Positions 27,227-47,218 of a stretch of DNA of 64,000 bases are shown here, one piece after another. The DNA is from Verrucomicrobium spinosum DSM 4136 = JCM 18804. GTDB lineage: Bacteria; Verrucomicrobiota; Verrucomicrobiia; Verrucomicrobiales; Verrucomicrobiaceae. Below the pieces are notes generated by a model that saw only the letters and a program-made list of their open reading frames with translations, ran no database searches and was not told where the DNA came from. The stretch's first letter is position 1, and each line of letters starts with the position of its first letter. The translations under genes and the position numbers were made by a program. Location of the stretch: NCBI RefSeq assembly GCF_000172155.1, contig NZ_ABIZ01000001.1, positions 5,613,105 to 5,677,104 on the forward strand. The letters run 5' to 3'.

Positions 27227-29935
27227 TCAGGGCGCAAGGGGCTGATGCTCCAGGCGGCGGAAGCGGGTTACGCCCACGGCGGAGGCAGCTGAATAGCGTT
27301 CCAGCATGGTTTGCTGGCGACTCTCGGCGGTGATGACCAGATTGCCGTTGGGGGTCTGTTTCAACGCCTGGCCGATGCTGTACACCATGAAGACGCCGCC
27401 CCGGGTGGTGACCAGACTTGCAATTCCTCGAACCACGGCTTCACTCTCTTCGCCCCCGTCTGCGACTCCGGCAATCTCCACGATCTCCCCGGGGGAGTCG
27501 TAGGTCTCGGCATAGCCGTACTTCTTGCCTTTTGCAGCCAGGGTGCGGTTGTAGATGTTCCTGGCAATCGTGCGCGCCTTGGCGATACTGATGGTATCGC
27601 AGTCACCCGTGGAGGTGGTTGCCGCCACCCCGGTCAGCAGGGCCACCAGCGGCAAGAAACGCTCCAGAGGTGAGGTGACTTGGGCAGCATCGCCATATGG
27701 CTGCACCTGGGAGTTGATGTTGATGCGTCCCGCTGTGCTGGTACCATGCGGGGCTAACATGCCTCTGGCCCGCTCAGGCACCTCCACAGGGACCGTAAAC
27801 AAGTCCATAAAGGCCCAGTCAGGCACCATCGCGGCCGAGTCTTCGTTGGGCTGTAGACGCAAGGTGCGCCATGGCACCCCGGCTCCTCCTCCACTCTCCA
27901 TTCCCGTGTGGATATAACCAAGTTCGCCCATAGAATCGACCTGCCCGCTGGAGTTGCCCGTGGAGCCGGCGGGAGGCGGCATGTAGAGGCTGGCATCTGT
28001 GATCACTCCGCTGGCATCCGTGTCCTGCCTGGGGGTCGTGGTGGATGCCTTGCCCAGGGTGCGGATGGCCACCCCTCCCTCCGTGCCGTCGTTCTTCCTG
28101 CCGAAGCTGTTTCCATAATCCCGCTTTTTCCAGTCGTTACGATGCGTGTTCACGCGCGGGTCATCCACTTCGATGGAGTGGATATCCTTCTCAGCCACCC
28201 CAGGACCATCCAACGTACAGGCTGCCGCCCCACCCAGCGGTGCCACGTCGAGGCGCCGGATGCGAGCGATGGCAGCGCGTAGATTGACCGTGGTCGGCCG
28301 GGCACCAGTCATCCTCACCGTGGAAGTACGGGTGATGCTGGCGTAGCCTCCCGCGGTCAGGATGGCATTGCCCCCCTCGATCTCCGCCGTGGTGATGTCC
28401 GTCTCTCCGGGCGCACCACTTAACTCTGCCCCGGAAGCGGTGAGGAAGAGGCTCATCTTCGTCAGATCAATCTGATCCAGCCCAAAGTTCGCGGGCAGAT
28501 GAATCTCCAGTTTGTACTTGGCCTGATAAGTATTGTCGCGGCTGCCGGAGGCCGCCACCCATAGCCCCATCTCAGTGATCTTCGGTGCCCGGGTGACGCC
28601 AATGAAGGCAATGTCAGAAGAAGCAACCTCCTTCAACTGGAAACGACCGCCCGCCGCCTGATCGCCACGAAGGGGCACCACCGCCTTGGTCACATCCTCC
28701 CCGACCGACTCCTTTGACCGCACATAGTTGATGATATTGAGCGAGAGCTGGGTGAGCCGTTCGGGCTTGTTCGCATAGTATTTGGCCTGAAAGCTGGAGT
28801 CAGGCGCTACGGGCCAGTCGGTCCGTTTGAGGTAGGAGTTCAGAAGGTCGATCGTGTCTGCCAGTTTGGCAGCGTCGGTGTGGGCAATGGGATCCCAGAT
28901 TTCAGTGGCCCCGTCTTTCTTGATGTCGATGAACGGCCGCCCGGCAGCCTTGGCCTTGTCGGTCGTGAGAACAATGCGAGGTTCGTTGAAAAACGTCGTG
29001 TCCGGCTCGTGGTTGTAATGGGTGACCTCGAACTTGGCGCGGTTCAGCACCGTGGTGAAGTTGCCAGCCCCATCATCCAGATCCCGCAGCTCACGGGTGG
29101 AGTTGAAGAAGCGCTTCACCGTGCTGTAGTCATAGGGGTCCGGTGCGATGGCAGTGTGCATCCGGTCCACCATGTCCACCGTCATGCCGCACGTGGCGAG
29201 GGACAAAAGATTGATGCTGGCAGGATGACTGGTGCCGAGAGGGCTCTTCACGCCTGTCTCTCCGTTGGAGCCATTACGCTTCCAGGCTGTGTTGAGGTTG
29301 ATCTTGCTGGACTCATCGTCCGCCCACCAGGCAAAGCGACCCACGATGGGGTTCGCGGAATTCGTCAGTACGGGTGACTCAGACTCATCCAGCGTGCCAT
29401 CCTGTCGCAGATAGATCCAGCGCAGCGGCAGGGTTGCCACGGGGCTGGTGCTGTCCTCAGGGTCTGTCCGTTGGTCCGTGATAACATGAGTCACCGGACT
29501 CTGATCATTGAAGGTCTGGACATTGAGATTGGCGGGTGCAAGCGGGTTATCAGGCGCAAGCGCCAGGGCGGTCATTCCCGGCAGGCCGGAGTGCAGCGGC
29601 AACCGCCTCCCCAGCCTGATCAAGGAAGAGCCGCTGGCATCCTCCAAAGGGAGAATCAAGGCCCCGGGCTGACTTGCCCAGACCCTCGCGCCATCCGTGG
29701 TGTGCTTCCTCAGCACCCCTGTCACCATGTTCACCCCCATCTGGGAGTACCCCTGGGCACATGCCCGGTCCAGGTGGGCACTGGAAGCAGCAGTCTCATG
29801 CCGCACCATGTGTGCGAACCCCAGCACCATGATGGTGATGAGGGCGAGGAGGATGACAGTGATCACCAGGGCCATGCCCCGGCGGGTACGACCACCGCGA
29901 CCATATAGCCGACCAGAAGGAAGAAGGGGCGTCAT
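27227..29935 (-). CDS. Verru_Chthon cassette protein A (copy 1), GspK-like
   Basis: 902 residues from the ATG at 29935, which overlaps the upstream stop as ATGA. A basic stretch and one membrane helix (RRGMALVITVILLALITIMV) start the protein. The large domain includes RFAWWADDESSKINLNTAWK, resembling the DExGKINLNTA motif of the minor pseudopilin GspK, and later GRININSQVQPYG. It fits the largest member (A) of the four-gene cassette known from Verrucomicrobia. It is the last gene of cassette 1 (order D-B-C-A). The role is inferred: tip or anchor component of a pseudopilus-like structure. Confidence 0.85.
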   Translation of the reverse strand: MTPLLPSGRLYGRGGRTRRGMALVITVILLALITIMVLGFAHMVRHETAASSAHLDRACAQGYSQMGVNMVTGVLRKHTTDGARVWASQPGALILPLEDASGSSLIRLGRRLPLHSGLPGMTALALAPDNPLAPANLNVQTFNDQSPVTHVITDQRTDPEDSTSPVATLPLRWIYLRQDGTLDESESPVLTNSANPIVGRFAWWADDESSKINLNTAWKRNGSNGETGVKSPLGTSHPASINLLSLATCGMTVDMVDRMHTAIAPDPYDYSTVKRFFNSTRELRDLDDGAGNFTTVLNRAKFEVTHYNHEPDTTFFNEPRIVLTTDKAKAAGRPFIDIKKDGATEIWDPIAHTDAAKLADTIDLLNSYLKRTDWPVAPDSSFQAKYYANKPERLTQLSLNIINYVRSKESVGEDVTKAVVPLRGDQAAGGRFQLKEVASSDIAFIGVTRAPKITEMGLWVAASGSRDNTYQAKYKLEIHLPANFGLDQIDLTKMSLFLTASGAELSGAPGETDITTAEIEGGNAILTAGGYASITRTSTVRMTGARPTTVNLRAAIARIRRLDVAPLGGAAACTLDGPGVAEKDIHSIEVDDPRVNTHRNDWKKRDYGNSFGRKNDGTEGGVAIRTLGKASTTTPRQDTDASGVITDASLYMPPPAGSTGNSSGQVDSMGELGYIHTGMESGGGAGVPWRTLRLQPNEDSAAMVPDWAFMDLFTVPVEVPERARGMLAPHGTSTAGRININSQVQPYGDAAQVTSPLERFLPLVALLTGVAATTSTGDCDTISIAKARTIARNIYNRTLAAKGKKYGYAETYDSPGEIVEIAGVADGGEESEAVVRGIASLVTTRGGVFMVYSIGQALKQTPNGNLVITAESRQQTMLERYSAASAVGVTRFRRLEHQPLAP

Positions 29936-30855
29936 GGTGCGCTTTCCAGATGAACTTTGAGCGTCTGGGAAGACATGCCTACCACTATGCGGCTCAGGCT
30001 GACGTTGGTCTGCAGGGTCTCCACGCAGTGGGCCGCGGTGGCACTCCGGGCGACTGCGGCCTTGATCGTCGCCGCCATGGGCGCCGTGAGGAGTGAGGCC
30101 GACCGTGAATCCAGCACTACAACTGACACCTCCACCGCGGTAGGCAGTACCGGGGCAGAGCGAGTAACATTGGCAACAGTGCCCGTGGACTCGTGAACCT
30201 GATCTGCATAGCCCACCCGGGAATCGTACCCACCAGCGCCCACTCCCGGCTGGGTGATGGCGTTGCCCGACGCGTCCAGGCAACGCACCCACAACCCAAC
30301 AACGTTCTCTGCAAACAGCCCCCGGTAGGAATTCGCCGCATCCGCCGGAGCGGAGGAGTTCAGCACCGCCTCCGTCACCCAGGAAAGCTGGCTGTACACC
30401 AGATGATCGCCCGCTCCGGGATTCAGAAAGATCCGGCACAAGGAGGCCCGCGGCGTGGGGGAAGAGTCATCCCAGCGGACGAAGTACCCGATCTCTGCCA
30501 TGTTTCCGTGAACCGTGGAAGTGGCGAGCGGAGCCTGCCAGAACACCGCCTGAGGCTGCCGGTACTGGGCGGGCACTCCTGCGGGATTCACCACGAACTG
30601 CAAGTCCGGCGTGTTGCCGGTGGATCGGGAGTCCACCGGCAGCGCCGCTGAGCGCAACTCCCGACCGATGAAATCCACCAGCGCACGACCATTCTGGCTG
30701 CGCTCCGTGCGGCCCTGGCCCTGTGACCAAGTGTTGCTCACCATGCCGGCCACCTGCACCAGCAGCACGACAATGAGGCTCAGCACCGCCGAGGCCACCA
30801 TCACCTCAACGAGCGAATATGCATGGAGGCTATTTCTCTTTTGCGAGGGAAACAT
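29932..30855 (-). CDS. Verru_Chthon cassette protein C (copy 1), GspJ-like
   Basis: 307 residues. The N-terminal prepilin-like segment HAYSLVEVMVASAVLSLIVV has the conserved Glu at position +5 of the mature form; the residue before the cleavage site is not the usual Gly. The following helix and globular domain (GRALVDFIGRELRSAALPVD) resemble PulJ/GspJ. It overlaps the B gene by 26 bases upstream and the A gene by four bases downstream. Role: probable pseudopilin of cassette 1. Confidence 0.85.
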   Translation of the reverse strand: MFPSQKRNSLHAYSLVEVMVASAVLSLIVVLLVQVAGMVSNTWSQGQGRTERSQNGRALVDFIGRELRSAALPVDSRSTGNTPDLQFVVNPAGVPAQYRQPQAVFWQAPLATSTVHGNMAEIGYFVRWDDSSPTPRASLCRIFLNPGAGDHLVYSQLSWVTEAVLNSSAPADAANSYRGLFAENVVGLWVRCLDASGNAITQPGVGAGGYDSRVGYADQVHESTGTVANVTRSAPVLPTAVEVSVVVLDSRSASLLTAPMAATIKAAVARSATAAHCVETLQTNVSLSRIVVGMSSQTLKVHLESAP

Positions 30856-31288
30856 GGATGATTCGTGGGGCGCGCTCAGGCTCCAGGTTGAAGGTCCATT
30901 TCAGGGTGGCCAAACACGCATCTGTCCCCACATCAGGGATGCCCCCCCTGCCCGCAGAGGCGGACGTCGGGACCGGAATCGGGCTGAAACTCACCTTGCA
31001 GACATAGAGGGCCTGCTCGTCCTCCGCAGCCACCGTGCCTGCCTCAGTGAACCGGAACTCCACCGTTTGCGAGAGGATGCTGGGATAGGGCCGGGAACGC
31101 AATTCTCCCACGGCCACAGACATCATCCTAGGGAGCTGGGAGTTGAAACCACTCTCCCGCTCCGTCTTCATCAGCAGCGGCAGCAATCCCACCACTGCCA
31201 GCAAAGAAAAGCCAATGATGGCGATCGCAAGCGCAACCTCCACGAGACTGAAGCCCCCTTTTCTGGGTGAAATCCTGCGCAGGCTCAT
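30830..31288 (-). CDS. Verru_Chthon cassette protein B (copy 1), GspI-like
   Basis: 152 residues with a type IV prepilin leader: KGGFSLVEVALAIAIIGFSL, cleavage expected after Gly, with Phe at +1 and Glu at +5. The rest is a short domain (MSVAVGELRSRPYPSILSQT) similar in size to GspI. It overlaps the preceding D gene by an ATGA and the C gene by 26 bases. Processing would need a prepilin peptidase, which is not in the window. Confidence 0.87.
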   Translation of the reverse strand: MSLRRISPRKGGFSLVEVALAIAIIGFSLLAVVGLLPLLMKTERESGFNSQLPRMMSVAVGELRSRPYPSILSQTVEFRFTEAGTVAAEDEQALYVCKVSFSPIPVPTSASAGRGGIPDVGTDACLATLKWTFNLEPERAPRIIHVSLAKEK

Positions 31289-31935
31289 GGACGCTCCACT
31301 TTGGTTTTACCCGTGGCACCAAGCAGCACCACACGATAGTAGTTTGACGGAACTCCGCCCTCTGCCTGGCTGAACTGCACCTTGCCGCCAGACACGGTGC
31401 CCTCCACCAGCCGGAACTGGGCCGCATCCTCCGGATTCAACAGCCCGCCACCAGGCAGGAAGATCCGAGCAGCATACGTGTCGGCGGGCAGGCTCGAATT
31501 TGAGCCATAGGCGACCGGTGCACCATGGGTGCCGCCATCCGCAAACGGAAAGGGCTGGGGACTGTTGGCGAAGAAGGTGGCATCCGCTCCGGCGGCTCCC
31601 AAGTCCGCCACGATACCGTCTGGCAGCACCTCCCACTCGTGAATCTGACGCCACCCGCCGGCCACGGTGTACTCCAGCACCGTGAAGGCGCGCCCGTCCA
31701 CCTCGGTCCCGAGGGACTTCACCAGCACCACCGCGTTCAGGGTATTTTTGGTGATCGCCTGTTGCCGGGCCATCTCCATGAGCCAGATGACCTTGTTCCC
31801 TGCGTTGGTCAGCGTCATGGCACGCAAAGTCCGGCCCACGCCCAATCCTCCAATCACCAGGAAGGAAGCCATGACGGCAATCACCATGAGCATCTCCACC
31901 AAAGTGAAGCCCTCACAACACCTTGATTGATGCAT
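31285..31935 (-). CDS. Verru_Chthon cassette protein D (copy 1), GspH-like
   Basis: 216 residues from the ATG at 31935; an in-frame ATG at 31965 would add ten residues. Leader CCEGFTLVEMLMVIAVMASF is a classical prepilin site (G/FTLVE). The following pattern NAGNKVIWLMEMARQQAITK resembles GspH/FimT, where this helix precedes a beta-rich domain. It is the first gene of cassette 1, 114 bases after the small gene at 32050-32508. Confidence 0.87.
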   Translation of the reverse strand: MHQSRCCEGFTLVEMLMVIAVMASFLVIGGLGVGRTLRAMTLTNAGNKVIWLMEMARQQAITKNTLNAVVLVKSLGTEVDGRAFTVLEYTVAGGWRQIHEWEVLPDGIVADLGAAGADATFFANSPQPFPFADGGTHGAPVAYGSNSSLPADTYAARIFLPGGGLLNPEDAAQFRLVEGTVSGGKVQFSQAEGGVPSNYYRVVLLGATGKTKVERP

Positions 31936-32049
31936 ACTGCATTCTGTACGTTTCCCTGCCGTCATGACACCACGCCTTATACAGGAGATGTCCGGCGAGC
32001 CCGGTTGGTTATGCTGAAAGAGAACGTCAGGACTGTTCCCGGCGGAGAG

Positions 32050-32508
32050 TCAGGAAGCATAGAGATCCACAAGACTCTCCATAAACTCCTCCAGTTCCTC
32101 GCCCGGGTCCAGCACCAGGGCTTCGACGCTGCTTCGAGTCAGCGCCACACCGGCTTTACCAAGCAACGAATGCAACTGGCAGGGATCCACCATGCGCACC
32201 CGCTCCTCAGCCTGATCATAGAGATAAATATCCCCCCCGGAGAGGGTGGCCAGCGTCCAAAATCCCAGACCGGACACGCGACTGCCCGGATCCTGCAACG
32301 TATTGGCATCGAGAAAGGCTTCGCTGCCGAGGATCATCATCTCTCCCAGATCAAGACTCGAAGAAGGAATGACTCGCTCTACATAGTCCCGCAACTGACC
32401 TCTTAGCTGTCGTCCCAGGCCATCGAGGCGTTTCACGAGATGAGGATCCCCGAGTACCACCTCGGAGAAACCCATCCGCCGGATCAGACGCCGCAGGGAT
32501 CGTTTCAT
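32050..32508 (-). CDS. Small protein coupled to the giant PEP-CTERM gene
   Basis: 152 residues from the ATG at 32508, which overlaps the stop of the giant gene as ATGA. There is no signal peptide. The N-terminus is very basic (MKRSLRRLIRRMGFSEVVLG). The middle FWTLATLSGGDIYLYDQAEE and an acidic C-terminus (DPGEELEEFMESLVDL) weakly recall SMI1/KNR4 (SUKH) proteins, but I cannot confirm this. Translational coupling suggests a cytoplasmic partner, chaperone-like or immunity-like, for the giant protein or the cassettes. Confidence 0.75.
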   Translation of the reverse strand: MKRSLRRLIRRMGFSEVVLGDPHLVKRLDGLGRQLRGQLRDYVERVIPSSSLDLGEMMILGSEAFLDANTLQDPGSRVSGLGFWTLATLSGGDIYLYDQAEERVRMVDPCQLHSLLGKAGVALTRSSVEALVLDPGEELEEFMESLVDLYAS

Positions 32509-35500
32509 GGTTTTTTCCCGAATTTCTGGCCGGAAGCACGGAACCACCTCCTTCTGCGCGTCCCCAGCGCACCGAGGGCGAGAAGAAGGAGCACCGCCCT
32601 GGAGGGCTCTGGCACTGCTGACAAGGTGATGGCACCGGTCGTATAAAGATTGCTGTAGTCCCAGGACAACCCGGTCCCTGAGAGAGCTGAATCGAGCTCC
32701 GTGGTGACGAACGTTCCCGTCCGTGAGGTGAGCCCCGTCCAGTCGATGAGCTGCCAGGTGTCTCCTATCGCCCAGGTGGTCATGTTGTTCGTCTCGACCT
32801 GGAGAGACACATCCGCCCCAATCACCAACACGCCAGAGATGACCAGCAAATCAGACTCCCCGCCTCCGGTGCCCGCGCCATTCACCAGATCCAATGTGAT
32901 CACACTGCCCGTCTGGAAGGTCAGTGTTCCCGAGCCGCTTGCCAGCGTCAGCGTGCTGGCCACGGCAGAGCTGAGCGACTCATCCCCTACCGCAAGAGTC
33001 CCGCCAATCGTCATGCCGGCAACACTCGTCACGGTTCCGCTGCCCTCCAACCGCGCGCCCGCAGCCAGGGTCAGCGAGTTCACGGTCGTGGTACCGCCAA
33101 AGTAAGTCGTACCCGCATTCAGCAGCACACTGCCGGAGAAGGACTGAGTGCCAGATACCGCCAGGCGGCCAGATCCCGTCTTCGTGAGCCCGTTACCCGT
33201 GACGGTGCCCTGCAGGTTCAGCACCCCGGCGGCATTGGCCACATTCACCGTCGCCTGGGAGTTGGCCAGGACCAGGTTCGTGTTCAGAGTCACGGCCCCG
33301 GTGCTGGTCACCGACACCGCACTGGCACCGTTTACAGTCAGTTTGTTGTCCAGGTCGTTCAGAGCTGCGACCGCGGTGTTGTTAAACTCCAGACTGCCCA
33401 CCGCCATATCCGCCCCCAGCGTCATGTCGGTCTGGTTGCTCGCGCCAGTGGCGGAGAAGATCACCTTGGTGTTCGCCCCCGCCACCTGTCCCGTCGCGCT
33501 CGTGCCCGCGCTGTCAGTGGTCCAGTTGCTGGTTGAACTGCCATCGGAAATGGCCCAGACATTGGCCCCACCGCTGTAGCCGCCCTTCCAGTAGGCCTCC
33601 GTGAGCGCGGTGGCCGTGGCCACATTGAGCCAGACCTCCGTGCTGCTCGATCCCACACCGGTCACGGTGTAGCCAGACAGGTTGTAGTAGTTCCCCAGCA
33701 CATAGCTGGCCCCACTGAGCCCGCTCGTGGCTGAGATCACCGTGTATTGCCCGGCCGCGTACGTCGCGCCCGCGACGCCAAAGACATCGAGCGTGACGGA
33801 ACCGGTCGTGCTGGCCGCACTCTGGACGATGATGCGGTTGCCCAACTCCACACCGACAGTGGAGCCACTTTCCAGAGTCAAAGTCGCACCGGAATTCAGC
33901 GTGAGATTGTTTCCAATAACACCCGAGGTGTACCGGAAGGATGCTCCGGATTTGACCGTGAGCGAGGCCGTCCCCTGGAGGGCTGTTTGGCTGCGAGCCC
34001 AGAGCGTTCCCGCACTGGCCACCGTCGCCCCTGAGTAGCTGTTGGTTCCGGCCAGGTAGAGGGTGCCGGCACCAGTCTTGGTCAGGGCGGTGGCTCCGCC
34101 ATTGATCTGGGCCACGTTCTTGAGCGTGCCCGCCAGCAGGTTCACCGCATCAATGTTGTTGGTCGCATCGCCAATGTTGTGCCCGGTCATGTCCAGAGTG
34201 CCACCGTTGAGGTTGATGGTGGAGGTGGCCGCACCGCCGCCGTCTTTGATGTCCACATTGGACACCAGCTTGCCACCGGTGATGTTCAGCGTGCCGCTCG
34301 CAGTTCCGGATCCCGACTGGGAGGCCAGGGTGAATGATCCTCCTGAGTTCACAGTGAAGACACCGTTGCTGATGTTCAGCGTGGCCGTCGCCGCCCCCGT
34401 TCCCGCATTGGTCTTGGCCGCCATCACCACAGAGTTCGCCGTGAACGTACCGCCGTCAAAGTACACCGTGCCCGTCGCACCGCCGGCATCCGTGCCATCG
34501 CGTTTTCCAATGGTCAGGACACCTGCGGTGACCGTGGCCGTCATGCCCCGCAGATCGAGGATGCCGGTCGGGGTGGCGGCAGTGCCTGTGCCCGCAGTGC
34601 TGCCTACGGTGATGGCGGTGGTGCCGCCCGTCTTCCCGCCAATGGTGACGCGACCGCCGCTGGCGGAAGCGACCACGGTGCCCAGCGCCTTCGACACGCC
34701 AATGTTGAGCGTGTCCGTCTTCAGGATGTTGGTTCCTGTGCCGAAGTAGAGGGTGCTCACCGTGCCCGCGTTGGATCCCGCACTGTTGCCCACATGGGTG
34801 GTGGTGACCGTGATGGCGTTGTACGTGTTGGACAGCGTCAGAGTCCCAGTCGTAAGTGACCCGTAGCCCAGCCGCAGTTCGTTCACATTCGCCACAAACG
34901 ATCCCAGTGCCGCGAGATTGAGCGCGGCCGCATGGGTGGAGCCGGAGTTGATTGTGGCATAGGCAATGCCCAGCTCCAGATTGGCGCTCGTGTTGCTGAC
35001 GACCAGGGCACCACCGCCGGAGAAGGTGGCATTGGTCGTCATGGCTGCATTGGACGCGCCCGTGCCGAGGTCCAGCCCCGTGGTGCCGGTGATGGAGAGT
35101 TTTTGCCCTTTGCCAATCACGACCTCATTGGCCGTGGCGGTGTTGCTGGTGAAGACGAGGCTGTCCACTGTCTGGCTGTAGCTGTTGAGCTCCAGGCGGC
35201 CCACGGTGGTCCCTGATCCGATCGTCACGGCCCCAGTGGTAGGGAGGGCGTTCGTGGTGCCGATGATCACCGTTCCCTGGTTGATGGCAGTGGTGCCAGT
35301 GTAGGTATTGTTCCCCGAAAGCGTCTGCGTCCCGGTTCCCGTCTTCACCAGTGAGAGGACAGATCCGGACGTTCCATTTTTCAACACCCCGCTGAAAACC
35401 GCACTGGCATCATTGCCGGAGCCCAACGTCAGGGTGGCCGCGGCGCTGTTGCTGGTCACCACCCCGGAGCCGTAGAGGCCGTCAATCGTTTCATTGAACC

Positions 35501-38500
35501 CGTAGAGATCCAGCGTTCCCCCGCTGTTCACCGTGACGTCGGAGGTATTGGCGATTTGCTCCGAGGCGGAGAGCTGCACCAGGGCCGTGGAGCCCGAGGT
35601 ATCCCCCACCTCCAAGTTGCCCGACACAGCGGCCAGACCCGCCGTCTTGGCCAGGTACACCGTGCCGCCATACACCTTGAGCGTACCAGTGAAGTCATTG
35701 GCCAGGTTCCCGGAGAGGGTCAGCGTGCCGCTCCCGGTCTTGGTGAAGGCGTTGCCCCGCACACGCGTCAGGTAGAGCTGACCGCCAGAGGCCACACTCA
35801 CAACGGCCGCCGCGTTGTTGAAGATCACACTCGTATCGAGAGTGACCTGCCCTGCCCCCGCATTGACGGTGATGGCGTCCGCCCGGTTCAGCGTCAGGGA
35901 GTCATTCAGATCCTGGAGCCACACCGCATCACTGGTGTTGAAGGTCAGCGAGCCGACCTTCATGCTGAACCCGAGCGTCATTGGAGCCGCCTGCTGCACC
36001 GCGCCAGTGGCCGAGAAGATAAGCTGCGTATCCGCCCCAGGGGTCAGCGAGGTGTCGGTGCCAGCGGCATCCGAGGCCCAGTTGCTCTTGGTGCTGCCAT
36101 CCGTGATAGCCCAGACCGCTCCATCGGAGGCGCTGAAGCCCCCCTTCCAATACGCCACGGAAAGCTCTGCCGCAGCCGTCACATCCAGATAGACGGCCGT
36201 ACTGGTGACCCCAAGGCTGTTGATCTTGAAGTTGGTGATGTTGTAGAGCTTGCCAAGCGTGTAAGTCGCATTATTCAACCCGCTGGCCGCCGTGATCACG
36301 TTGTACTGCTGCGTCAGGTAGGTGAAGCCAGACACCCCGTTCACGTCCAGGGTGATCGAACCAGTCGTCGCCGCCGCCCCTGTGGAGGCGATCGCGCTGC
36401 CCAACTCAACTCCCAGCTTGCTTCCGGTGGCGAGACTCAAAGTTCCGACCGTGAGGGTGTTGCCCGTCGCCCCCGTCTGATACTGGAAGGTGGCTCCGTT
36501 CGCCACACTCAGTGACGAGGTACTGCCCAGTGCATTCTTGTTGGTTGCCCGCAGTATGCCCGCATTCACCGCAGTGGTACCGGTGTAGCTGTTCACTCCA
36601 GAAAGCGTCCAGGTCCCGGCACCAGACTTCACCACATTCACAGAGGCACCACCGGTGCCATTGATGATGGAACCGCTGATGATGCCCTCGCTGGCACCGA
36701 AGAGCTGCAAATACCTGCCAGTGCCCGTGGTGGCGCCGCCGGAGATCTGCCCGGTGATGGTGAGTGTGCCAGACTCTGAAGCGAGGTTGTAGTAGCTGCC
36801 GCCCGTGGTGAACGTGATGGTGCCTGCCCAGACGTTGTTGCCGCTGTAGTTGCTGATGGCGGCTGCGGCAATCCCGTCACTCTGCCGGGCCTCCAAGGTG
36901 ACGTTCTCATTCACCACAATGTCACCGGCCAGTTCCAGCCGGGAGAGCTGTCCCGTGTTGCCGGAGATCGTGGTCGTGCCCGCAGTGCTGCCCAGCGCCG
37001 TACCGTTGGTGATACGCAGGATGCTGTTCACCCCGCCGCTTACCACCGTGGCCCCGGTGTAGGTGTTGCTTCCAGATAGAATGACCAGGCCGTCGGTGGA
37101 CTTGGTAAGGCCAGCGGTGCCAGCCAGCACCACGCTGACCGTTCCGCTCTGCATGAGATAGGTGGAGGTGCTGGTGATGGAGGACCCACTGCCAATGATC
37201 TGCCCCCCACCCGCAACGGTCACCTGCCCCACCGTGTCCGAATATCCGTTCAGATCCCAGACAGCCGTGGAGCCATTCACAGTGACCGCCCCGGTGTTGA
37301 TGACGTTGCTCGCACCGTAGAGCAGTGTTCCCTGCAGGATGCTGGTGAGACCGGTGAAAGTGTTCGTTCCGCTCAATGTCAGCGTACCTGCTCCAGTCTT
37401 GGTCAATGCAGTGATCATCGTCCCGGTGGTGGTGCCGTTCGAGATCACACCGCTGAAGGTGAAACTCTCCCCCCCAGATCCCACCGTCAGAGTCCCAGTG
37501 CCCACCGCATTGCTGGTGACCGAGCCCGCGCCAGCGAGAGCCCCGATGGTTTCGTTGCGCCCATTGAGGTCCAGCTTGCTGCCAGTGTAGATGGTGACAT
37601 CCACTCCATCCGCAATCTGCTGATCCGCATTCAGCACGACCGAGGCGTACAGCCCCGTTGCGGAGAGCGTGGATTCACCAATGAACAAATCCGATCCCGA
37701 CACCGCTGTGAGTCCAGCGGTTTTGCCCAAGATCAAGGTCCCTTGCTCGATCTTGGTGGTGCCGACAAATGTGTTCGCCGTGGTGCCGGAAAGAGTCAGC
37801 GTGCCCGCGCCGCGTTTGGTGAATGCGTTGCCGCTCAATTCGCCAGAGATGGTCAAGGTGCCGAGCCCCAGCTGGGTGCCATCGGTCATCCCCACCGTTA
37901 GAAGCGGGAGCGCTGACTCCAGGATGACATCGTTATTGAGCGTGAGGCCGCCTGTGAGATAGCTCACGTAGATCGTGGGCGTGGAGGTGCTCGAGTCCCC
38001 ACCCGTGAGCGTCAGGGAATAGACCGAGTCATTCACCACGACGGCGCTGGTCCCCGCGCTACCACTGGCCTGCCCGTCCACCGACAGCGTCTTGATGCGC
38101 ATGTCATAGCCCAGCGTGGTACTTTGCATGTAGGTGGTGTTCGCCCCATTGGCCGCAAAGATCACGTCCGTGGTCTCCCCCGGCACGATACCATAGACGT
38201 ACTGCCCCCCACGGTCGAAGGACCAGTTGCTCTGCCCGCCGGTTAGCAGACCGTTCGATACCGCCCACACGGCCTCTTCACCCGACATGCCCCCCACCCA
38301 GTACATGGTCGTGAGGTTCTCCGCCCCCACGCTCATGAAGGTGCCCGTGATGGAAGTGCTGGTGGTCGTCACCGAGGTGAGAAGCGCATTGGAGAGGCCG
38401 TAAAACTTGAGATCATAGGTCGCATTGGTAATCCCACCCGAACTGGAGGTGAGGAAGGTGTAGGTGCCATCCGGCGACAAGCCCGTCTTCGCAAACACGT

Positions 38501-40526: not shown

Positions 40527-40591
40527 GTGAACAGGGGGGAGTCGATGAAACTAGCTGGATCGGCGGATGGATGTACGGGCTGGCGCGCAGG

Positions 40592-43500
40592 CTATCGGGT
40601 AAAGCGACGCACATGCCGGATGCGCCAGGTGTAGAGGGAGTCCAGGGACTTGGCGGTGCTCAGGCTGCCCGCCACCGCCTTGCCGATGTAGTCGTATTCG
40701 GTCTTCTTAAGCGCGGCATCGTTGGGGTCGATAGCCCGTTCGACCAGCGCATCCCCCTGTTTCTCCCCAGTGACCAGATCCTTGTCGGGATCGAAGGTGT
40801 CCGCCTCACTGGAGCGCGCCTTCGTGATGGTCTGAACGAGGAAGTGCACCCGGTAGGTGTTGGAGCGGGTGGTGACCCGTGGGTAGATGTTGGCATACGG
40901 CCGCTCCATCGTGTTGTCCCCCGTGAGCTGACGCGTGCCCCAGTAGCTCGACATGGCCGAGCGGATGGCGCTGCCGGTGCTGCCGCCCACCCCATCATCC
41001 TTGGGCACCAGGAACTGCTCGCAGACTTCCCCTGCGTTCATGAAGTACTGACCGGCATCAAACTGGCTCTCCCACTGGAGGAGCGTCTTGTCGGCATCGA
41101 TGTAGTGCCGCCAGTTGCTGTTCAGCGAGATCTTGGTGTAGTCCTTGTAAGTCTTGCCCGCACTCGTGGGGATGGCCAGCATCTCCTCGGACTTGAACAC
41201 TGCGTGCAACCCGGTGGCCCGCTTGATGTTGGTGAAGGGAACAATGCGGTAGTTGAGGTTCACCTTGCCCGCGGTCGAGAACGGTTCGCTGATCGGATAG
41301 GGCTGCACCACTGGCATCCAGAACCAGTCCAGCAGCGCATGATCTGGCGGAGCACCGGCCATCGCTCCCTTGGTGCTGTGATCCTTCGCTCCCAGGTGCC
41401 CGCCAGAGGTGATGTCGGGCCGGAAGAGATAGGTGGTCCACTGGATGCCGGTGGACGGTGCCGATGGCAGAGAGCCAAACATCACCGCTGACGGGAGGAG
41501 CTGGTTGGGGGCCGTGGTCTGGTTGGCCGGACGGCTGTTGACGTTGACCCCATCCCATGGATTCTGGCTGAAGTACGGAGGAATCGTGCCGTCATACACG
41601 CGGGCCCCGTCATCCGGCTTGTTCCAGTAGGCGCCATCCGGGGCGATGCCTGTGCCATTGTCCCAGTCACGGGTCTCCCAAGGTTTGACGGTGTAGGGGT
41701 AGTTCGAGGGAATATTCGCCCGGAACACGGTCGAGTTTCCGTTCACCGGGAAATCCGGACGGTAGTCGCTCGTGGTGGCGGTGAGGTTGTTGTAGTCCGC
41801 ATCCGGCACCAGCTTGGCTTCTGTGGTACCGTCTCCCCACGTGGGAGAGTACTCCACGCCCGGGAGGAAAAGGGTTCCGGCCTTGCCCGTCTTGTGAGGT
41901 TTGCCACCTGCTTTCACAAACGAATGAATCTGCCCCTTCAGCTGAGACGCGGCGAGCTGGGAGGAGCCGATGTTGACTGGATCCCACGCTGGGTGCGGCA
42001 CAAAAAGCCGCTTGCTGGCATCCACCCCATTCGCCCCCGCCCCTTCACGCAACCGCTGGTAGGCCAGGCGATAGTCTCCATGCCGCACCACCCAGGTGCG
42101 GACCACGTCGCTTGCGTCGATGAGTTCCGGCTTGGCAAAGCGGTTGCCACTGTACTCCCGCGCATTCTTGTACCGCTTGCTGAAGGTGTACGCCAGCTCC
42201 AGCGGTTTTGTGGGCACTGGCACCACCATGTTGGCAGGCACCTCAGCCAGCAGCCGCCGGCTGGAGTAGTCTCCGTTCCGCTGGTTGCCCACCCTGATCT
42301 CCAGACACCGCTCCGCCAGGGACGTGGTGCGCACGCTGGACACCGTCATGGAGGTGGCCGCAGAGGGCACGAGGAAATAGCCCCGGCTGTACATGGCCGG
42401 GGAGGTCAGACTGTCAGAGGCCACGTCCAGATCTGCCACCGCAGTCGCATCGGATCCGCCATTGGCGTTGCTGTCCGCGTACATCCAGTAGCCACCCGAC
42501 CCGCCCCAGCCCGCCCACCAGTCCCCTGTGGTGTTCCGGCCCGCAAGCGGCGTTTCCACGGGTTTGATTTTGCTGAGATACTGCAGGTGGGACACATTGT
42601 GCAGCAGCGTGCCCCACAGGCTGCGATAGCCGGTGGACACGTCCCCGTCCCCGTCCTTCTGCACGAGCGGCGGCGTGATGACAGCTCCACCGGGACCACG
42701 GGTGCCGAAGCCCGTGGTCGTGATGCGGAGGTTCTCCAGGGAGGAGACATTGAACGAGGTGCTGGGAGCAATCATTGTATAGCCCTGCCCGGCGCAGAAG
42801 CCTTCAGCCACAATGCCCACCTGGATGGCCTTCTGCCCCGGCTGCAGGTTCAAGAGCGTCACAAGATCCGGGTTGGTCTTGGCAGCCGTCGAACTGGAGG
42901 GATTCTCCGCAGCGAGAATGAAAACCAGACCGAACTCCGACACCGTGAACTCGCGACCGATTCCGGTCGTCCAGACGCGGTCATTGCCATCGTCATTGGT
43001 GTTGCGTTTGAGGATTTTGTTGTCGGTATTGAGCGGTGCGCTGTAGTAGGTCATGTCCACCGCGGCCACCTGCCCCAGCGTATCGGTGCCGATCCAGTTG
43101 GCCGAGGCCTGGGAATAGGCGTCCACCGGCACCCGTGGTGTCACACTCTTGGTGGAGTGGGTGGAATCATTGGCGTTGGTCCCGCGGATGTACTCCAGCA
43201 TGGAGACGATCCCGGACCCCACATTGTAGGGGCTGCTGGAGGGGGAACCAGTCCGGTCGTCGTACTTCTGGGCGAATGACTTTGAATACCCCTGATTGGG
43301 GAGCTTGGCCAGTTCGATGAGATACTGTGCCAGCGAGTTGTTGTGAATCATGCCATAGCCAAAGGAGTCCGTGCTCTCAGCATTGTAGTAGTTCGAGAAG
43401 TCATCCATGTTCGACGCCGCACTGCTGCGGCGGAAGTGGTAGGGATGGTTGCCCAACGTGCTGGCAAATGCTGAGACGTTGTCGAAAGAGGTCCGTTTGT

Positions 43501-44815
43501 TGTTGGCCGGTTCCGGCCGATAACTCACCGGCCAGATCGACACCCTGGGGAACCCGGCGGCAGTGGTCTCCGGAGCGCGGCTTTCAGCCGTCAGCAGGAA
43601 GCGCAGCTTCTTGAGCCTGTCCGCATTGCCTCCCAGCACCCCCTGCATCATCCGGGTGCTGAAGCTCTGCGCCGTGCTCGTCGTATCCGAGGGGTCATCC
43701 AGCAGGAACTCATCCACCGAGGCATAGAGGCGGTCCGTGTCAAAATCCACCGGGCTGGTGCTGGAGGTCAGCAGACCCGCATTGGCATTCACCCGGGGCG
43801 TCACCGCATAAAGGTTCTGAAGCTTGGCCGCAGAAGCGGAGTTGGACGGCAGCAGCCGCTCGCCCGGGTAGAAGATGGTGCTCAAACACGTGGTGGCCGG
43901 GTGCCCGCCAAAACGCTGCACCTCATTGCGCACCGGCGGACTCTTGGCGAACTCCAGCTCCCGGCTCGTCACGCACCGTGGGGTGTCCCAGAACATGCCT
44001 TCTGAGGCGGTGTTGATGTTCACCTTCCCCGATTCATCATCCGTCCAAAAGGCCAGGCGCCCCACGATGGGATTGGAGGTGCTCACGGCCTTCTGCCCGC
44101 TGAAGGGGACAAACTTCGGGCTCGCGGACTGGCTCATCACCCCGAGGCTGCCGTCTTGCAGCACATAGACCCAGCGCACCGGCATGGGCAGACGCTGGGA
44201 GGACGCGGTGCCGCCAGGAGCACGGACTCCGTTGATGGTACTCTTGCTCACCGCCAGCTTCGAGTCATAGGAAAAACCCTCCGGTGTCGTGCTTCCAGGA
44301 TAGGACGGGGTGGCCATGTCCATCGCCCGGGGATCCACGATGGGAAACATCAGGTTGCCAGCGACATCCGGCGCCGGCTCATTGAGATCGGCATAGACGC
44401 CCGGCAGAGTGTCCCAGGTGGAGGGCACATCGGATTCCAGGTTCAACGCCGAGCCATCGGTGAGACCAGCCGCAGACACCACCATCTCCTGGGCGCTGTA
44501 GAGCTTGTAGATGCGGGAGGCCGTGCCTGTGCTTTTGCCATAGGTGCGGATGGCCCCTGGTTGGGAAATCCAGAGCGCATTGGTTTCCGTGGTCCCCTGT
44601 CGCATCTGGCCGATGGCGGCATTCACCGCCATGTCCTGAAGCGTGTTCAGATCATGCACCGCCGCGTGGCTGGAGGATGACCGCAGCTGCACCGTGGACA
44701 TGTTAAAGAACAGCACCACCACCAGCGTGACCATGCCGACGATGAGCAGCGCAGGCAGCAACGCGGTGCCACTGGCACCACGGCGGGCGAAATGCAGGGA
44801 AGAGGAAACTTTCAT
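40592..44815 (-). CDS. Verru_Chthon cassette protein A (copy 2), GspK-like
   Basis: 1407 residues, about 500 longer than copy 1. One membrane helix near the N-terminus (GTALLPALLIVGMVTLVVVL) is followed by QDMAVNAAIGQMRQGTTETN and ALWISQPGAIRTYG. RLAFWTDDESGKVNINTASE is the GspK-like motif shared with copy 1, and KVNLNYRIVPFTNIKRATGL a second such segment. It is the last gene of cassette 2 (order B-C-D-A) and lies 65 bases upstream of the giant PEP-CTERM gene. The extra length is in the C-terminal two-thirds. Confidence 0.85.
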   Translation of the reverse strand: MKVSSSLHFARRGASGTALLPALLIVGMVTLVVVLFFNMSTVQLRSSSSHAAVHDLNTLQDMAVNAAIGQMRQGTTETNALWISQPGAIRTYGKSTGTASRIYKLYSAQEMVVSAAGLTDGSALNLESDVPSTWDTLPGVYADLNEPAPDVAGNLMFPIVDPRAMDMATPSYPGSTTPEGFSYDSKLAVSKSTINGVRAPGGTASSQRLPMPVRWVYVLQDGSLGVMSQSASPKFVPFSGQKAVSTSNPIVGRLAFWTDDESGKVNINTASEGMFWDTPRCVTSRELEFAKSPPVRNEVQRFGGHPATTCLSTIFYPGERLLPSNSASAAKLQNLYAVTPRVNANAGLLTSSTSPVDFDTDRLYASVDEFLLDDPSDTTSTAQSFSTRMMQGVLGGNADRLKKLRFLLTAESRAPETTAAGFPRVSIWPVSYRPEPANNKRTSFDNVSAFASTLGNHPYHFRRSSAASNMDDFSNYYNAESTDSFGYGMIHNNSLAQYLIELAKLPNQGYSKSFAQKYDDRTGSPSSSPYNVGSGIVSMLEYIRGTNANDSTHSTKSVTPRVPVDAYSQASANWIGTDTLGQVAAVDMTYYSAPLNTDNKILKRNTNDDGNDRVWTTGIGREFTVSEFGLVFILAAENPSSSTAAKTNPDLVTLLNLQPGQKAIQVGIVAEGFCAGQGYTMIAPSTSFNVSSLENLRITTTGFGTRGPGGAVITPPLVQKDGDGDVSTGYRSLWGTLLHNVSHLQYLSKIKPVETPLAGRNTTGDWWAGWGGSGGYWMYADSNANGGSDATAVADLDVASDSLTSPAMYSRGYFLVPSAATSMTVSSVRTTSLAERCLEIRVGNQRNGDYSSRRLLAEVPANMVVPVPTKPLELAYTFSKRYKNAREYSGNRFAKPELIDASDVVRTWVVRHGDYRLAYQRLREGAGANGVDASKRLFVPHPAWDPVNIGSSQLAASQLKGQIHSFVKAGGKPHKTGKAGTLFLPGVEYSPTWGDGTTEAKLVPDADYNNLTATTSDYRPDFPVNGNSTVFRANIPSNYPYTVKPWETRDWDNGTGIAPDGAYWNKPDDGARVYDGTIPPYFSQNPWDGVNVNSRPANQTTAPNQLLPSAVMFGSLPSAPSTGIQWTTYLFRPDITSGGHLGAKDHSTKGAMAGAPPDHALLDWFWMPVVQPYPISEPFSTAGKVNLNYRIVPFTNIKRATGLHAVFKSEEMLAIPTSAGKTYKDYTKISLNSNWRHYIDADKTLLQWESQFDAGQYFMNAGEVCEQFLVPKDDGVGGSTGSAIRSAMSSYWGTRQLTGDNTMERPYANIYPRVTTRSNTYRVHFLVQTITKARSSEADTFDPDKDLVTGEKQGDALVERAIDPNDAALKKTEYDYIGKAVAGSLSTAKSLDSLYTWRIRHVRRFTR

Positions 44816-44847
44816 GACGATGATCTTGCGAGGTCGGGAAGGTGGTG

Positions 44848-45507
44848 TCAGGGCCTGAAGAAACGCACCCGGGCGGTGGCAGGCTCCAGCTGCATGGTGG
44901 CAAAGTTGGCAGGCAAACCGCCCCCGCTGACTTCAGCTTCTTTCACGAGGGTGAGCGTCCATTTCTGGGAGGCACCCAGGCTGCAACGGCCATCCGGCAG
45001 GAACCGGAAGCTCACGTAGCTCCGCGTCGCGCCACTGGTGGCCGTCTCCGTCCCCTTCACGAGATCCGCCTGGTTCTCGGAAAGCAACGTGGAATACGTT
45101 GCCGAGGGGTGGAAGACCAGGCCCTCCGGCAACGTCTCCGGGGCCCCGCTCGGGTTGAACGGCGGCTCATAGTCGGCCGCAGTGGGATCTTTGTAACCAG
45201 CATCATCCGGATTGATCACCACATCCACCGTCCCGTACTCCACAGTACGCCAGGACTCCTCGCCCATGTCATTGCTTACTTTGTAGATACGAAACACCAC
45301 CTCACGATTCGAGGTCATGGCCACCTGACGTGCGTGATCCATGGCATTTCCAACGGTCTGCACCGCCTCCTTCATCCGCAGCGTGGTCATGAGACTGCCG
45401 GCCCCCGTACCCGCCATGGCCAGCATGAGCCCCATCACGGAAACGACGATGAGCAGTTCCACCAGTGTGAAGGCACGCAACTGGCGGTCGCGGAAACAAC
45501 TGAGCAT
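44848..45507 (-). CDS. Verru_Chthon cassette protein D (copy 2), GspH-like
   Basis: 219 residues from the ATG at 45507. The leader FRDRQLRAFTLVELLIVVSV gives prepilin processing at A/FTLVE. An upstream start at 45594 would overlap the C gene and add an atypical 29 residues. The next segment VGNAMDHARQVAMTSNREVV matches the GspH/FimT helix of copy 1. The C-terminus has YVSFRFLPDGRCSLGAS, a common end of GspH-like domains. It lies between C2 and A2. Confidence 0.85.
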   Translation of the reverse strand: MLSCFRDRQLRAFTLVELLIVVSVMGLMLAMAGTGAGSLMTTLRMKEAVQTVGNAMDHARQVAMTSNREVVFRIYKVSNDMGEESWRTVEYGTVDVVINPDDAGYKDPTAADYEPPFNPSGAPETLPEGLVFHPSATYSTLLSENQADLVKGTETATSGATRSYVSFRFLPDGRCSLGASQKWTLTLVKEAEVSGGGLPANFATMQLEPATARVRFFRP

Positions 45508-45568
45508 GGCAGCTTGACGGGAGTTCACAGTGAAGAGGAGTGAAGGCACAAGGTTACCCGGGGTCCGG

Positions 45569-46678
45569 TCAGTAGGTGCCGTTCCAGCGGGCATTACGGA
45601 GGCGCACCGTGGTGGAGAAGACCCGGTAGTTCAGCTTCTGCCCCACCAGCGTGTCCTCCAGCGCGCGGATGTCGGCGTCGTACTTGGAGGCATCTAGGAA
45701 CAACCCATCCAACCCCAGAGATGGCATGGCTGAGCCGTTCGTGTCCTGGAGCCTCGTGGCGGACACATCATCCACCGCCACCAGGGTGAGACGCAGCAGC
45801 GGCGGCAGCCGGTGCCGGGTCACCTCCGCCAGGCCCGACGTGCTGGAGGTGTACTGGTAGCTGCGCGTGTCATACCCGTACGCGGGTGCGAGTGCTTCTG
45901 GCTTGAGCGTGCCCCCCGTTGAAGTAGTGCTGCCATCCGGCACCATGGGGAAGATCACGCACGCCACGATGTTCTCCGCCACGGTATGCACATTGGAGCT
46001 GTCCGCCAGGGCCGTGGTGTACCACTCCTGCACCTTCGCCCTCGTCGTCTGCGTATTCAGCTTGAGGGCGTAGGTCCTCATCATCTCCGCAGGCACCTGC
46101 AGCTCCTTCAGCCGGAACCGGTGGCGCGATGCCACCGGCGCACTGCTGCTGTTCAGGAAAGTGGGTCTGAGGGTGTCATCACTGCCGAACTCCAGAAAGT
46201 ATCCCCAGCTGTTTAGCAGGGTGTCCAGTCCCTTCCACTCCTTCTGCTCGCTCAGACCATAGGTTCCATGAAAGAACACAGCATGCCCGGTCCGGTTGCC
46301 GCTTCCTATAACCGGTGCCGTGCCGGCATTCGCCGGCCCGCTCACAAAGTGCAGGTCTGACTGTAGCTTGTATCCTGTGGGGACCGTGTTCGTGTCATTG
46401 TTCGCATAGACGTAGTCGTAGTAGGGATTGATCTCGCAGGCCTCCAGGCGCCGGCACATGGTCTCGAAGGCAGCCTGCACTTCACGGAACTGGCCGTTGC
46501 GCGCCTCAGCGATGCGCAACTGGCCCAGCGAGGCATTGAGCATGGACGTCGTGGTCATGAGCACCACAGAGAGGATCGTCACGCTGAGCAGAAGCTCAAT
46601 GAGGGTGAATCCCCTGCCCTCAGTGCCACGACATGAAGCAACCGGGCGTGCCCGCAGATGATTGACGTACGCAGTCAT
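45569..46678 (-). CDS. Verru_Chthon cassette protein C (copy 2), GspJ-like
   Basis: 369 residues. Prepilin leader EGRGFTLIELLLSVTILSVV has Gly before Phe and Glu at +5. Pattern FREVQAAFETMCRRLEACEI follows, as in GspJ. It sits three bases after the B2 stop. The domain is about 60 residues longer than copy 1. Role: probable minor pseudopilin of cassette 2. Confidence 0.85.
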   Translation of the reverse strand: MTAYVNHLRARPVASCRGTEGRGFTLIELLLSVTILSVVLMTTTSMLNASLGQLRIAEARNGQFREVQAAFETMCRRLEACEINPYYDYVYANNDTNTVPTGYKLQSDLHFVSGPANAGTAPVIGSGNRTGHAVFFHGTYGLSEQKEWKGLDTLLNSWGYFLEFGSDDTLRPTFLNSSSAPVASRHRFRLKELQVPAEMMRTYALKLNTQTTRAKVQEWYTTALADSSNVHTVAENIVACVIFPMVPDGSTTSTGGTLKPEALAPAYGYDTRSYQYTSSTSGLAEVTRHRLPPLLRLTLVAVDDVSATRLQDTNGSAMPSLGLDGLFLDASKYDADIRALEDTLVGQKLNYRVFSTTVRLRNARWNGTY

Positions 46679-46681
46679 GGC

Positions 46682-47218
46682 TTACAGGGTCTTTTCAAGA
46701 TTGACCAACAAGCTGCGGCTCACCCGCACGCTGCCCGGAAGAGACTTTCCGTTGTCCAGCGCTGCCTCCGCCTGATCCAGCGCCATTTTGCCCTGGCCTC
46801 CCGGGCGGGATGCCACCATCACCACCACCTGTCTCTGCCAGGTGTTTGCTGGCAGCCCCGCCACGGTTCCCAGCGTCACGCCCGCGGCGGAGCTCAGCCG
46901 CACCCGTGCAGTGTACACGCACTTCTCCTGGGGTGATCCCGTCGTCAGTTCCATCCCTTGATCGTCCAGGTAGGTATCCTTCTCCTGCCAGTTCTGGAGG
47001 AGGGACCAGTCGGCCTGTTGCACTTCACCAATGAGACGCGAGGCGATCCGGGCGGACACAGTGGTACTGGCAGCCCGTCCGCTGGTTTCGATGGAGGCGG
47101 AAAGCAACCCCACCAGCGGCACCATGACCGTGACGAGGATGCCAATGGTGATCACTACCTCCACCAGCGTCGCACCGGCGGCAGATCGGGCTTGGGGGTG
47201 ACGTGTTCTTGTGGTCAT
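46682..47218 (-). CDS. Verru_Chthon cassette protein B (copy 2), GspI-like
   Basis: 178 residues from the ATG at 47218; an upstream in-frame start at 47257 is less likely. Prepilin-like segment SAAGATLVEVVITIGILVTV has A-T at the site instead of G-F, with Glu at +5. The body (IASRLIGEVQQADWSLLQNW) is similar in layout to copy 1. It is the first gene of cassette 2, 134 bases downstream of the ParB-like gene. Confidence 0.82.
   Translation of the reverse strand: MTTRTRHPQARSAAGATLVEVVITIGILVTVMVPLVGLLSASIETSGRAASTTVSARIASRLIGEVQQADWSLLQNWQEKDTYLDDQGMELTTGSPQEKCVYTARVRLSSAAGVTLGTVAGLPANTWQRQVVVMVASRPGGQGKMALDQAEAALDNGKSLPGSVRVSRSLLVNLEKTL

Follow-up and report, generated by a model that had tools for sequence, protein, structure and literature searches.

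What are two sets of prepilin-like genes doing on either side of the gene for a very large PEP-CTERM protein? The question is raised by a stretch of 64,000 nucleotides from Verrucomicrobium spinosum (G000:C1:5613105-5677104, hereafter the window), whose genome forms one contig of 8,220,857 bp. A list of open reading frames (ORFs) and a check of their frames give ten intact ORFs, all on the minus strand, between 47218 and 27227, in the order B2-C2-D2-A2-giant-S-D1-B1-C1-A1. The answer that I propose is that this run consists of two separate modules, and that each set of four genes (a cassette, with proteins A to D) encodes the tip complex of a filament, either a type IV pilus or a pseudopilus, a large PEP-CTERM protein encoded next to it, where there is one, being the cargo of that tip. 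The first part is read directly from the comparison of genomes, while I give the second a probability of roughly 0.5. The features are as follows.

B2, 46682-47218, minus strand: Verru_Chthon cassette protein B, GspI/PilV-like prepilin; TIGR02598 60.1 bits, over the cut-off; Glu5 motif GATLVE
C2, 45569-46678, minus strand: cassette protein C, GspJ-like prepilin; TIGR02599 435.9 bits
D2, 44848-45594, minus strand (start perhaps at the ATG at 45507): cassette protein D, GspH-like prepilin; TIGR02596 130.9 bits; NCBIfam GspH 28 bits; Pfam GspH 20.0 bits, slightly below the Pfam cut-off of 21
A2, 40592-44815, minus strand: cassette protein A, oversized GspK/PilX-like subunit of 1407 amino acids; TIGR02600 1531 bits; without Glu5
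giant, 32505-40526, minus strand: PATR-repeat PEP-CTERM protein of 2673 amino acids, partner of cassette 2; nine TIGR02601 matches, TIGR02595 over the cut-off
S, 32050-32508, minus strand: protein of 152 amino acids, retained beside cassette 1 at the site that lacks module 2
relic, 31966-32016, minus strand: 3'-terminal remnant of the partner gene that cassette 1 has lost
D1, 31285-31965, minus strand: GspH-like prepilin of a divergent cassette; TIGR02596 49.0 bits, cut-off 70
B1, 30830-31288, minus strand: GspI/PilV-like prepilin; TIGR02598 41.3 bits, cut-off 51.4
C1, 29932-30855, minus strand: GspJ-like prepilin, class-2 clade; TIGR02599 54.9 bits, cut-off 256.5
A1, 27227-29935, minus strand: GspK/PilX-like subunit of 902 amino acids; TIGR02600 633 bits, over the cut-off; GspK E-value 1.2e-4
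module 2 (B2-C2-D2-A2-giant), 32525-47170, minus strand: absent as a single block from the equivalent site in G001

The genes are closely packed, with gaps of 3 bp (B2-C2), 32 bp (D2-A2) and 65 bp (A2-giant), and overlaps of 4 bp (giant-S, D1-B1 and C1-A1) and 26 bp (B1-C1). For C2 and D2, counted by hand, the first D2 start gives an overlap of 26 bp and the ATG at 45507 a separation of 61 bp. The largest gap of the run, between S and D1, is 84 bp, and the preliminary description of an uninterrupted series of ten same-strand, mostly overlapping or near-touching genes was thus accurate. Between 29500 and 48500 there are 17 terminator-like sites (10.6 expected) and 2 promoter-like sites (3.5 expected).

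Two modules placed head to tail

I compared the window with two congeners, Verrucomicrobium sp. BvORR106 (G003, locus L077) and BvORR034 (G001, loci L111 and L131), and with a member of another genus (G014). BvORR106 has the giant first, followed by S, by another PATR/PEP-CTERM gene (1351 amino acids), and then by D1-B1-C1-A1. The two flanks of this additional gene align with the window at 92% and 82%, but in the window 144 bp replaces 4.1 kb, and ∼50 bp of the 3' end of the missing gene survive. The junction of this relic scores 28.5 against the L077 gene, where the maximum of 200 block shuffles is 23, and the relic scores 26.5 against the last 60 nucleotides of that gene, where the maximum of 500 shuffles is 16; a blastn match to L111 also extends from window position 32016 into the partner gene. 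The PEP-CTERM partner gene proper to cassette 1 has therefore been deleted in the window. At L111 a shortened version of the same gene, of 292 amino acids, is kept and module 2 is absent: L111 1-9354 corresponds to window 56478-47171 and L111 9386-9853 to window 32524-32057, with the first codons of B2 left behind at the site. A related B-C-D-A-giant module is found at a different site of the BvORR034 genome (L131), and G014 (L070, L078) possesses module 2 without S and cassette 1, A2 being 76% and the giant 51% identical to those of the window, so that cassette 2 and the giant recur together. A third congener (G002, 76% complete) yielded neither S nor C1. S matches were obtained in 4 of 38 genomes (G000, G001, G003, and a partial one, at 37%, in G008), and S has no NCBIfam or Pfam match.

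In a tree of 83 C sequences, a quick one that carries long-branch warnings, the two cassettes of the window fall in separate clades with starred support, and gene order requires three changes. The window hence holds two modules of separate cassette lineages, B2-C2-D2-A2-giant and S-[lost cargo]-D1-B1-C1-A1. Since both the window and L111 keep a relic, it is suggested, from three genomes, that two complete modules in the BvORR106 order may be ancestral in the genus. A recent transfer of module 2 is not claimed, because synonymous divergence (dS) between the window and BvORR106 (A2 0.25, giant 0.23, C2 0.37, D2 0.35, B2 0.53) is barely below that of three flanking genes (0.30-0.57); nor do the ends of the module show a clear direct or inverted repeat.

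Cassette 1 remains under purifying selection in the window, with ratios of nonsynonymous to synonymous divergence of 0.09-0.16 in the comparisons that include it (A1 0.09-0.10), and it may therefore now serve another client. Over 888 sites, A1 shows 80 amino-acid changes specific to the window lineage, against 20 for BvORR106 and 25 for BvORR034. The corresponding numbers, in the same order, are 25, 8 and 13 for C1 (borderline, p 0.07), 17, 18 and 6 for D1, 12, 11 and 2 for B1, and 10, 3 and 17 for S. Control genes show no window excess (5, 4 and 8 for a sigma factor, 2, 9 and 7 for a gene of 326 amino acids, 19, 12 and 41 for a phosphoesterase). The excess in A1 is a single case, and agrees with selection having relaxed or shifted in the subunit that would be expected to meet the cargo. 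A clustering of the additional A1 changes within its beta-sandwich insert was considered and rejected, with 20 of 80 in residues 410-605.

Likeness of the cassette proteins to filament tip subunits

The preliminary description had recognized prepilin-like proteins in all eight cassette genes, and matches to the NCBIfam families Verru_Chthon cassette A to D bear this out and allow a sharper assignment, as parts of a tip complex. All four proteins of cassette 2 exceed the curated cut-offs (TIGR02598, TIGR02599, TIGR02596 and TIGR02600), making it a full member. A1 is also a member; D1, B1 and C1 fall below the cut-offs, although these families are their best matches, and I therefore treat cassette 1 as a divergent class. 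The family names state no function, and in the open-licence PubMed Central (PMC) literature I found no paper naming the Verru_Chthon cassette, and none combining prepilin, PEP-CTERM and Verrucomicrobi. TIGR02600 is matched in 34 of the 38 genomes, the own genome included (29 over the cut-off), and in 0 of 14 controls. For the C family there are 29 matches in the own genome: 18 genes exceed the cut-off, another gene is split, and the remaining matches are weak.

Taken together, the cassettes resemble the tip complexes of filaments, in which A would correspond to K/X, B to I/V, C to J/W and D to H/FimU; this likeness is strong in both C and D, good in A and weak in B. The best match of C outside its own family is GspJ by E-value (36 of 43 members, 2.1e-9), ComGE being commoner (42 of 43, 2.6e-8), and D matches GspH in 31 of 31 members (2e-15), ahead of ComGD, also found in all 31. 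For A, 24 of 27 members match GspK, with tapirin (2 members) as the sole other NCBIfam match outside the family of A itself, and 7 of 27 match PilX_N, for which reason family matches do not separate T2SS (type II secretion system) tips from those of type IV pili. The 32 members of B match PRK10557 (19), PilV (14), XpsI (12) and GspI (8). The window proteins are all below the curated Gsp cut-offs (GspJ 25.8 against 64.85 bits, GspH 28 against 80, GspK 21.7 against 130).

Glu5 of the prepilin motif is said to be absent from PilX and GspK in the relevant passage of PMC7541494. By motif count, it is found in 0/87 A, 79/82 B, 85/86 C and 82/82 D; the exceptions are two B proteins with GSTLVE, one B lacking its N-terminus, and one split C gene. 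A count by a hydrophobicity rule (B 67/82, C 63/86, D 57/82, A 0/87) misplaces the cleavage site in many rows, and the motif count was used instead. A motif around E-x-(K/R)-(I/V)-N-x-N occurs in 33/87 A and 0/186 other proteins, but as written in 0 ORFs of the T2SS loci, and was not used.

The AlphaFold2 model of C2 has a predicted local distance difference test (pLDDT) score of 86. The top ten rows of its fold search (Z 10.1-11.0, with the next row at 4.2) are eight entries of T2SS minor pseudopilins holding J (GspJ/XcpW/EpsJ) and two of TTHA1219, a type IV-like pilin. For the A1 model (pLDDT 80), which possesses a beta-sandwich insert at ∼420-590, the match to GspK (3ci0_K) reaches Z 7.3 over 106 aligned residues spanning residues 51-902, below the tool's caution line of 8, and taken alone would be a weak indication. 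When Foldseek was used by itself, neither model had a match below 1e-3 (best for C2, E 2.3e-3). In profile searches of the PDB, A, B and C recovered only the shared pilin helix, apart from one row at chance level for B; beta-propeller rows were obtained in addition for D, with no stretch passing alone.

The gene orders of the known tips are gspH-I-J-K and fimU-pilV-pilW-pilX, the latter with pilY1 behind. The D-B-C-A order of cassette 1 corresponds to both, and D-B-C-A-partner, found in L039, L113, L114 and L118, corresponds to fimU-pilV-pilW-pilX-pilY1.

Partner genes and the proposed cargo

Among the fetched loci of the matches listed, from the own genome and its relatives, 84 cassettes were counted, and a same-strand PEP-CTERM or PATR gene adjoins 45 of them, against 8 of 437 control genes of the same loci (∼29-fold). 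The genes are crude ORF calls, and the rule for cassettes, not that for controls, may step over one small gene. Omitted were loci L001-L030 (short, or fetched again over a wider region), L049, L050, L056, L078, L079 and L127 (pieces, or A without B-D), and any cluster that had under three of A-D. The rule scores cassette 1 of the window as paired with the giant across S (44/84 when this is excluded), and misses L036 and L054, with a partner that lies across the end of the locus or is placed between C and A; it also misses L105, which has a neighbour of 2348 amino acids that clusters with the repeat partners. By this rule the own genome has 25 cassettes, 14 of them with an adjacent partner. There, a listed PATR match (150 of the 463 candidates were scored) is found no more than 12 kb from 11 of the 19 strong C genes, where circular rotation gives a mean of 1.8 (p 0.0004). 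The module type is real and recurring: a cassette of tip-complex kind, often accompanied by a putative client gene.

A second tandem is found in the own genome (L035/L036, G000:C1:1520000-1559999), with a PEP-CTERM protein, A-B-C-D, a PATR/PEP-CTERM protein of 2428 amino acids, and A-B-C-D again. In L047 (1772-7012), the partner frame continues past an internal PEP-CTERM-like segment into sequence that, judged by eye, is like that of a secreted glycoside hydrolase. L034, L040, L043, L045, L065 and others hold cassettes without a recognizable partner.

The giant of the window has nine PATR stretches (TIGR02601, PF12951), an N-terminal signal recognized by eye, and a PEP-CTERM tail at 2638-2660 that is above the NCBIfam cut-off (Pfam 17.5 bits, below the cut-off of 20.7). 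This tail has the C-terminal PEP, hydrophobic stretch and basic end of such proteins, and exosortases are encoded elsewhere in the genome. In NCBIfam and Pfam the giant matches only the PATR and PEP-CTERM families, and not PilY1; a type V autotransporter was rejected, since no C-terminal beta-barrel family matched in these databases and the PEP-CTERM tail stands at the end. Repeat proteins of similar length follow a B-C-D-A cassette in BvORR106, G014 and BvORR034.

The own genome has 12 secretin matches, 14 of T2SSE type (which may include retraction-type ATPases) and 4 of exosortase, none of them in the window; T2SSE matches lie near 3.38, 4.54, 6.14 and 7.48 Mb, among other places. The preliminary description had placed the core machine outside the locus, which agrees with the secretin and T2SSE matches; prepilin peptidase was not searched for. 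Two T2SS loci, one at 4.54 Mb and the other at 7.48 Mb, have by family their own G, H and K (several under curated cut-offs), with J at 4.54 Mb only and I, weakly, at 7.48 Mb only. Since these loci carry minor pseudopilins of their own, the cassettes would be additional tips.

From these data I infer where the tip is located, how the cargo is loaded, which core is used, what role an exosortase has, and that the cargo is exported or displayed. The K/X-, I/V-, J/W- and H/FimU-like subunits would form the tip of a filament whose core machine is encoded elsewhere. The cargo would enter the periplasm through its N-terminal signal, be held by its C-terminal anchor and be loaded on the oversized A subunit, and the tip would then push it, or display it, across the outer membrane, as is thought for PilY1 with PilX-W-V-FimU. 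More tentatively, the own genome may hold a library of ∼25 plug-in pseudopilus tips on shared engines, many with a client surface protein or in the neighbourhood of secreted enzymes, in which modules are swapped, stacked and lost and the choice of tip sets what is exported or displayed. This would bear on how the T2SS selects its substrates, which to my knowledge is not yet explained. Should every cassette prove to be a tip accompanied by the gene of its client, Verrucomicrobium would offer many natural tip/client pairs on shared engines, together with natural losses of the partner; specificity could be tested by swapping modules, and four named but unexplained protein families would gain a function.

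Several observations weigh against tips that carry the neighbouring protein. The cassettes have no PEP-CTERM or repeat neighbour in 39/84 cases. The preliminary description anticipated a conserved linkage to PEP-CTERM repeat proteins, which holds within the taxonomic family (45/79) and not outside it (0/5), where two of the six genomes covered by the search (G026 and G030) gave no match to PATR though each has a cassette (L080, L129); the partner is therefore frequent but not required, and obligatory pairing is ruled out. The C tree (with L036 and L054 relabelled paired and window C1 unpaired) requires at least 19 changes of the partner label, and the interval from S to D1 contains one terminator-like site, a weak one. 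Faster change is clear in A1 alone, being borderline in C1 and absent in D1 and B1. With T2SS loci supplied with minor pseudopilins, cassettes are unneeded as generic tips. On the side of the subunits, GspI is the least frequent of the four B matches, the A1 match to GspK is level with beta-sandwich matches of the insert, and alignment of A to two GspK proteins of the own genome by hhalign covers 57 N-terminal columns.

Part of this would be explained if the cassettes were alternative tips of type IV pili, with a large A that binds surfaces as an adhesin, and the PEP-CTERM and repeat genes were co-regulated neighbours rather than cargo. The unpaired half of the cassettes, the insert of A1, the PilX_N and PilV matches, and the cassettes that adjoin DUF1501/PSCyt1, sulfatase or ECF (extracytoplasmic function) sigma/FecR genes are in line with this, and a published report places fimbriae at the prostheca tips of V. 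spinosum. I nevertheless regard it as rather unlikely, given the ∼29-fold pairing, which is kept in another genus, and the faster change of A1 in the lineage without cargo. Alternatively, the giant may leave by another route, such as a PEP-CTERM/exosortase pathway linked to exopolysaccharide, the cassettes serving an unrelated pilus. Its tail and the exosortases agree with this, as do the 65 PEP-CTERM genes listed for V. spinosum in the part concerned of Haft 2006 (PMC1569441), most of which can have none of the 25 cassettes, but the adjacency of 45/84 against 8/437 would be left unexplained, which makes this route improbable.

The preliminary description had combined both cassettes into one dedicated machine for the 2673-residue protein. 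It had the parts right and the class of machine roughly so, but merged two modules into one; the compact same-strand run and the continued selection on cassette 1 without its own cargo speak for such a double machine. It is nonetheless very improbable, with the cassettes in different clades, the own partner of cassette 1 present in both congeners that carry this cassette, module 2 alone in G014 with a relative at another BvORR034 site, and cassette 1 without an adjoining module 2 in G001.

Among known systems, the PilY1/minor-pilin clusters of Myxococcus xanthus, as far as PMC7541494 describes them in the passages concerned, resemble tips with cargo in having several sets per genome, each of four minor pilins and a large secreted protein, with one shared core, and a PilX which, like A, lacks Glu5. 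They differ in having PilY1 where a PATR/PEP-CTERM protein is found here, and three sets instead of ∼25; A is moreover ∼900-2000 amino acids long, the order is variable, and many sets here are without partner. GspH-I-J-K of the T2SS share the GspJ fold with C, the likeness of D to GspH and A to GspK, and the order of cassette 1; here, however, no core genes are attached, A is much larger, and the same genome has T2SS loci as well. The PEP-CTERM/exosortase system, as described in PMC1569441, has in common with the locus the tail of the giant and the exosortases of the genome, but none of the four exosortase matches is in the window, and the terms prepilin, pseudopilin and cassette are absent from the text of that paper.

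Other neighbours of the cassettes

Some cassettes adjoin DUF1501/PSCyt1-PSD1 pairs, sulfatases, XylR- or GntR-type regulators, or ECF sigma/FecR-LamG genes, and a LamG lectin domain is present in the short partner protein of L051, which suggests, no more, that other cassettes may serve secreted proteins that act on or bind glycans. In a verrucomicrobial study, a pseudopilin is over-expressed on alginate and one genome has 67 homologues of a pulG-like pseudopilin, according to the section of PMC13274419 concerned; this is a type of pseudopilin different from the cassette proteins.

In L115, L116 and L117, a same-strand run of PSCyt1-PSD1, DUF1501, an HpcH-type aldolase and a short PEP-CTERM protein precedes D-B-C-A (by Pfam for L117 only), with a GntR-type regulator ahead of the run in L117. 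L053 has DUF1501, aldolase-like and PEP-CTERM genes in common with these. In L031 (8285-19997), genes for PSCyt2/PSD1 and DUF1501 proteins and for a XylR-type regulator, together with an ORF of 108 amino acids, stand between A and B-C-D. Finally, window positions 62609-63685 resemble a CRISPR (clustered regularly interspaced short palindromic repeats) array, with a repeat of ∼36 bp, spacers of similar length and a period of 73; similar repeats reach ∼62.4-64.0 kb, and BvORR034 has repeats similar to these nearby.

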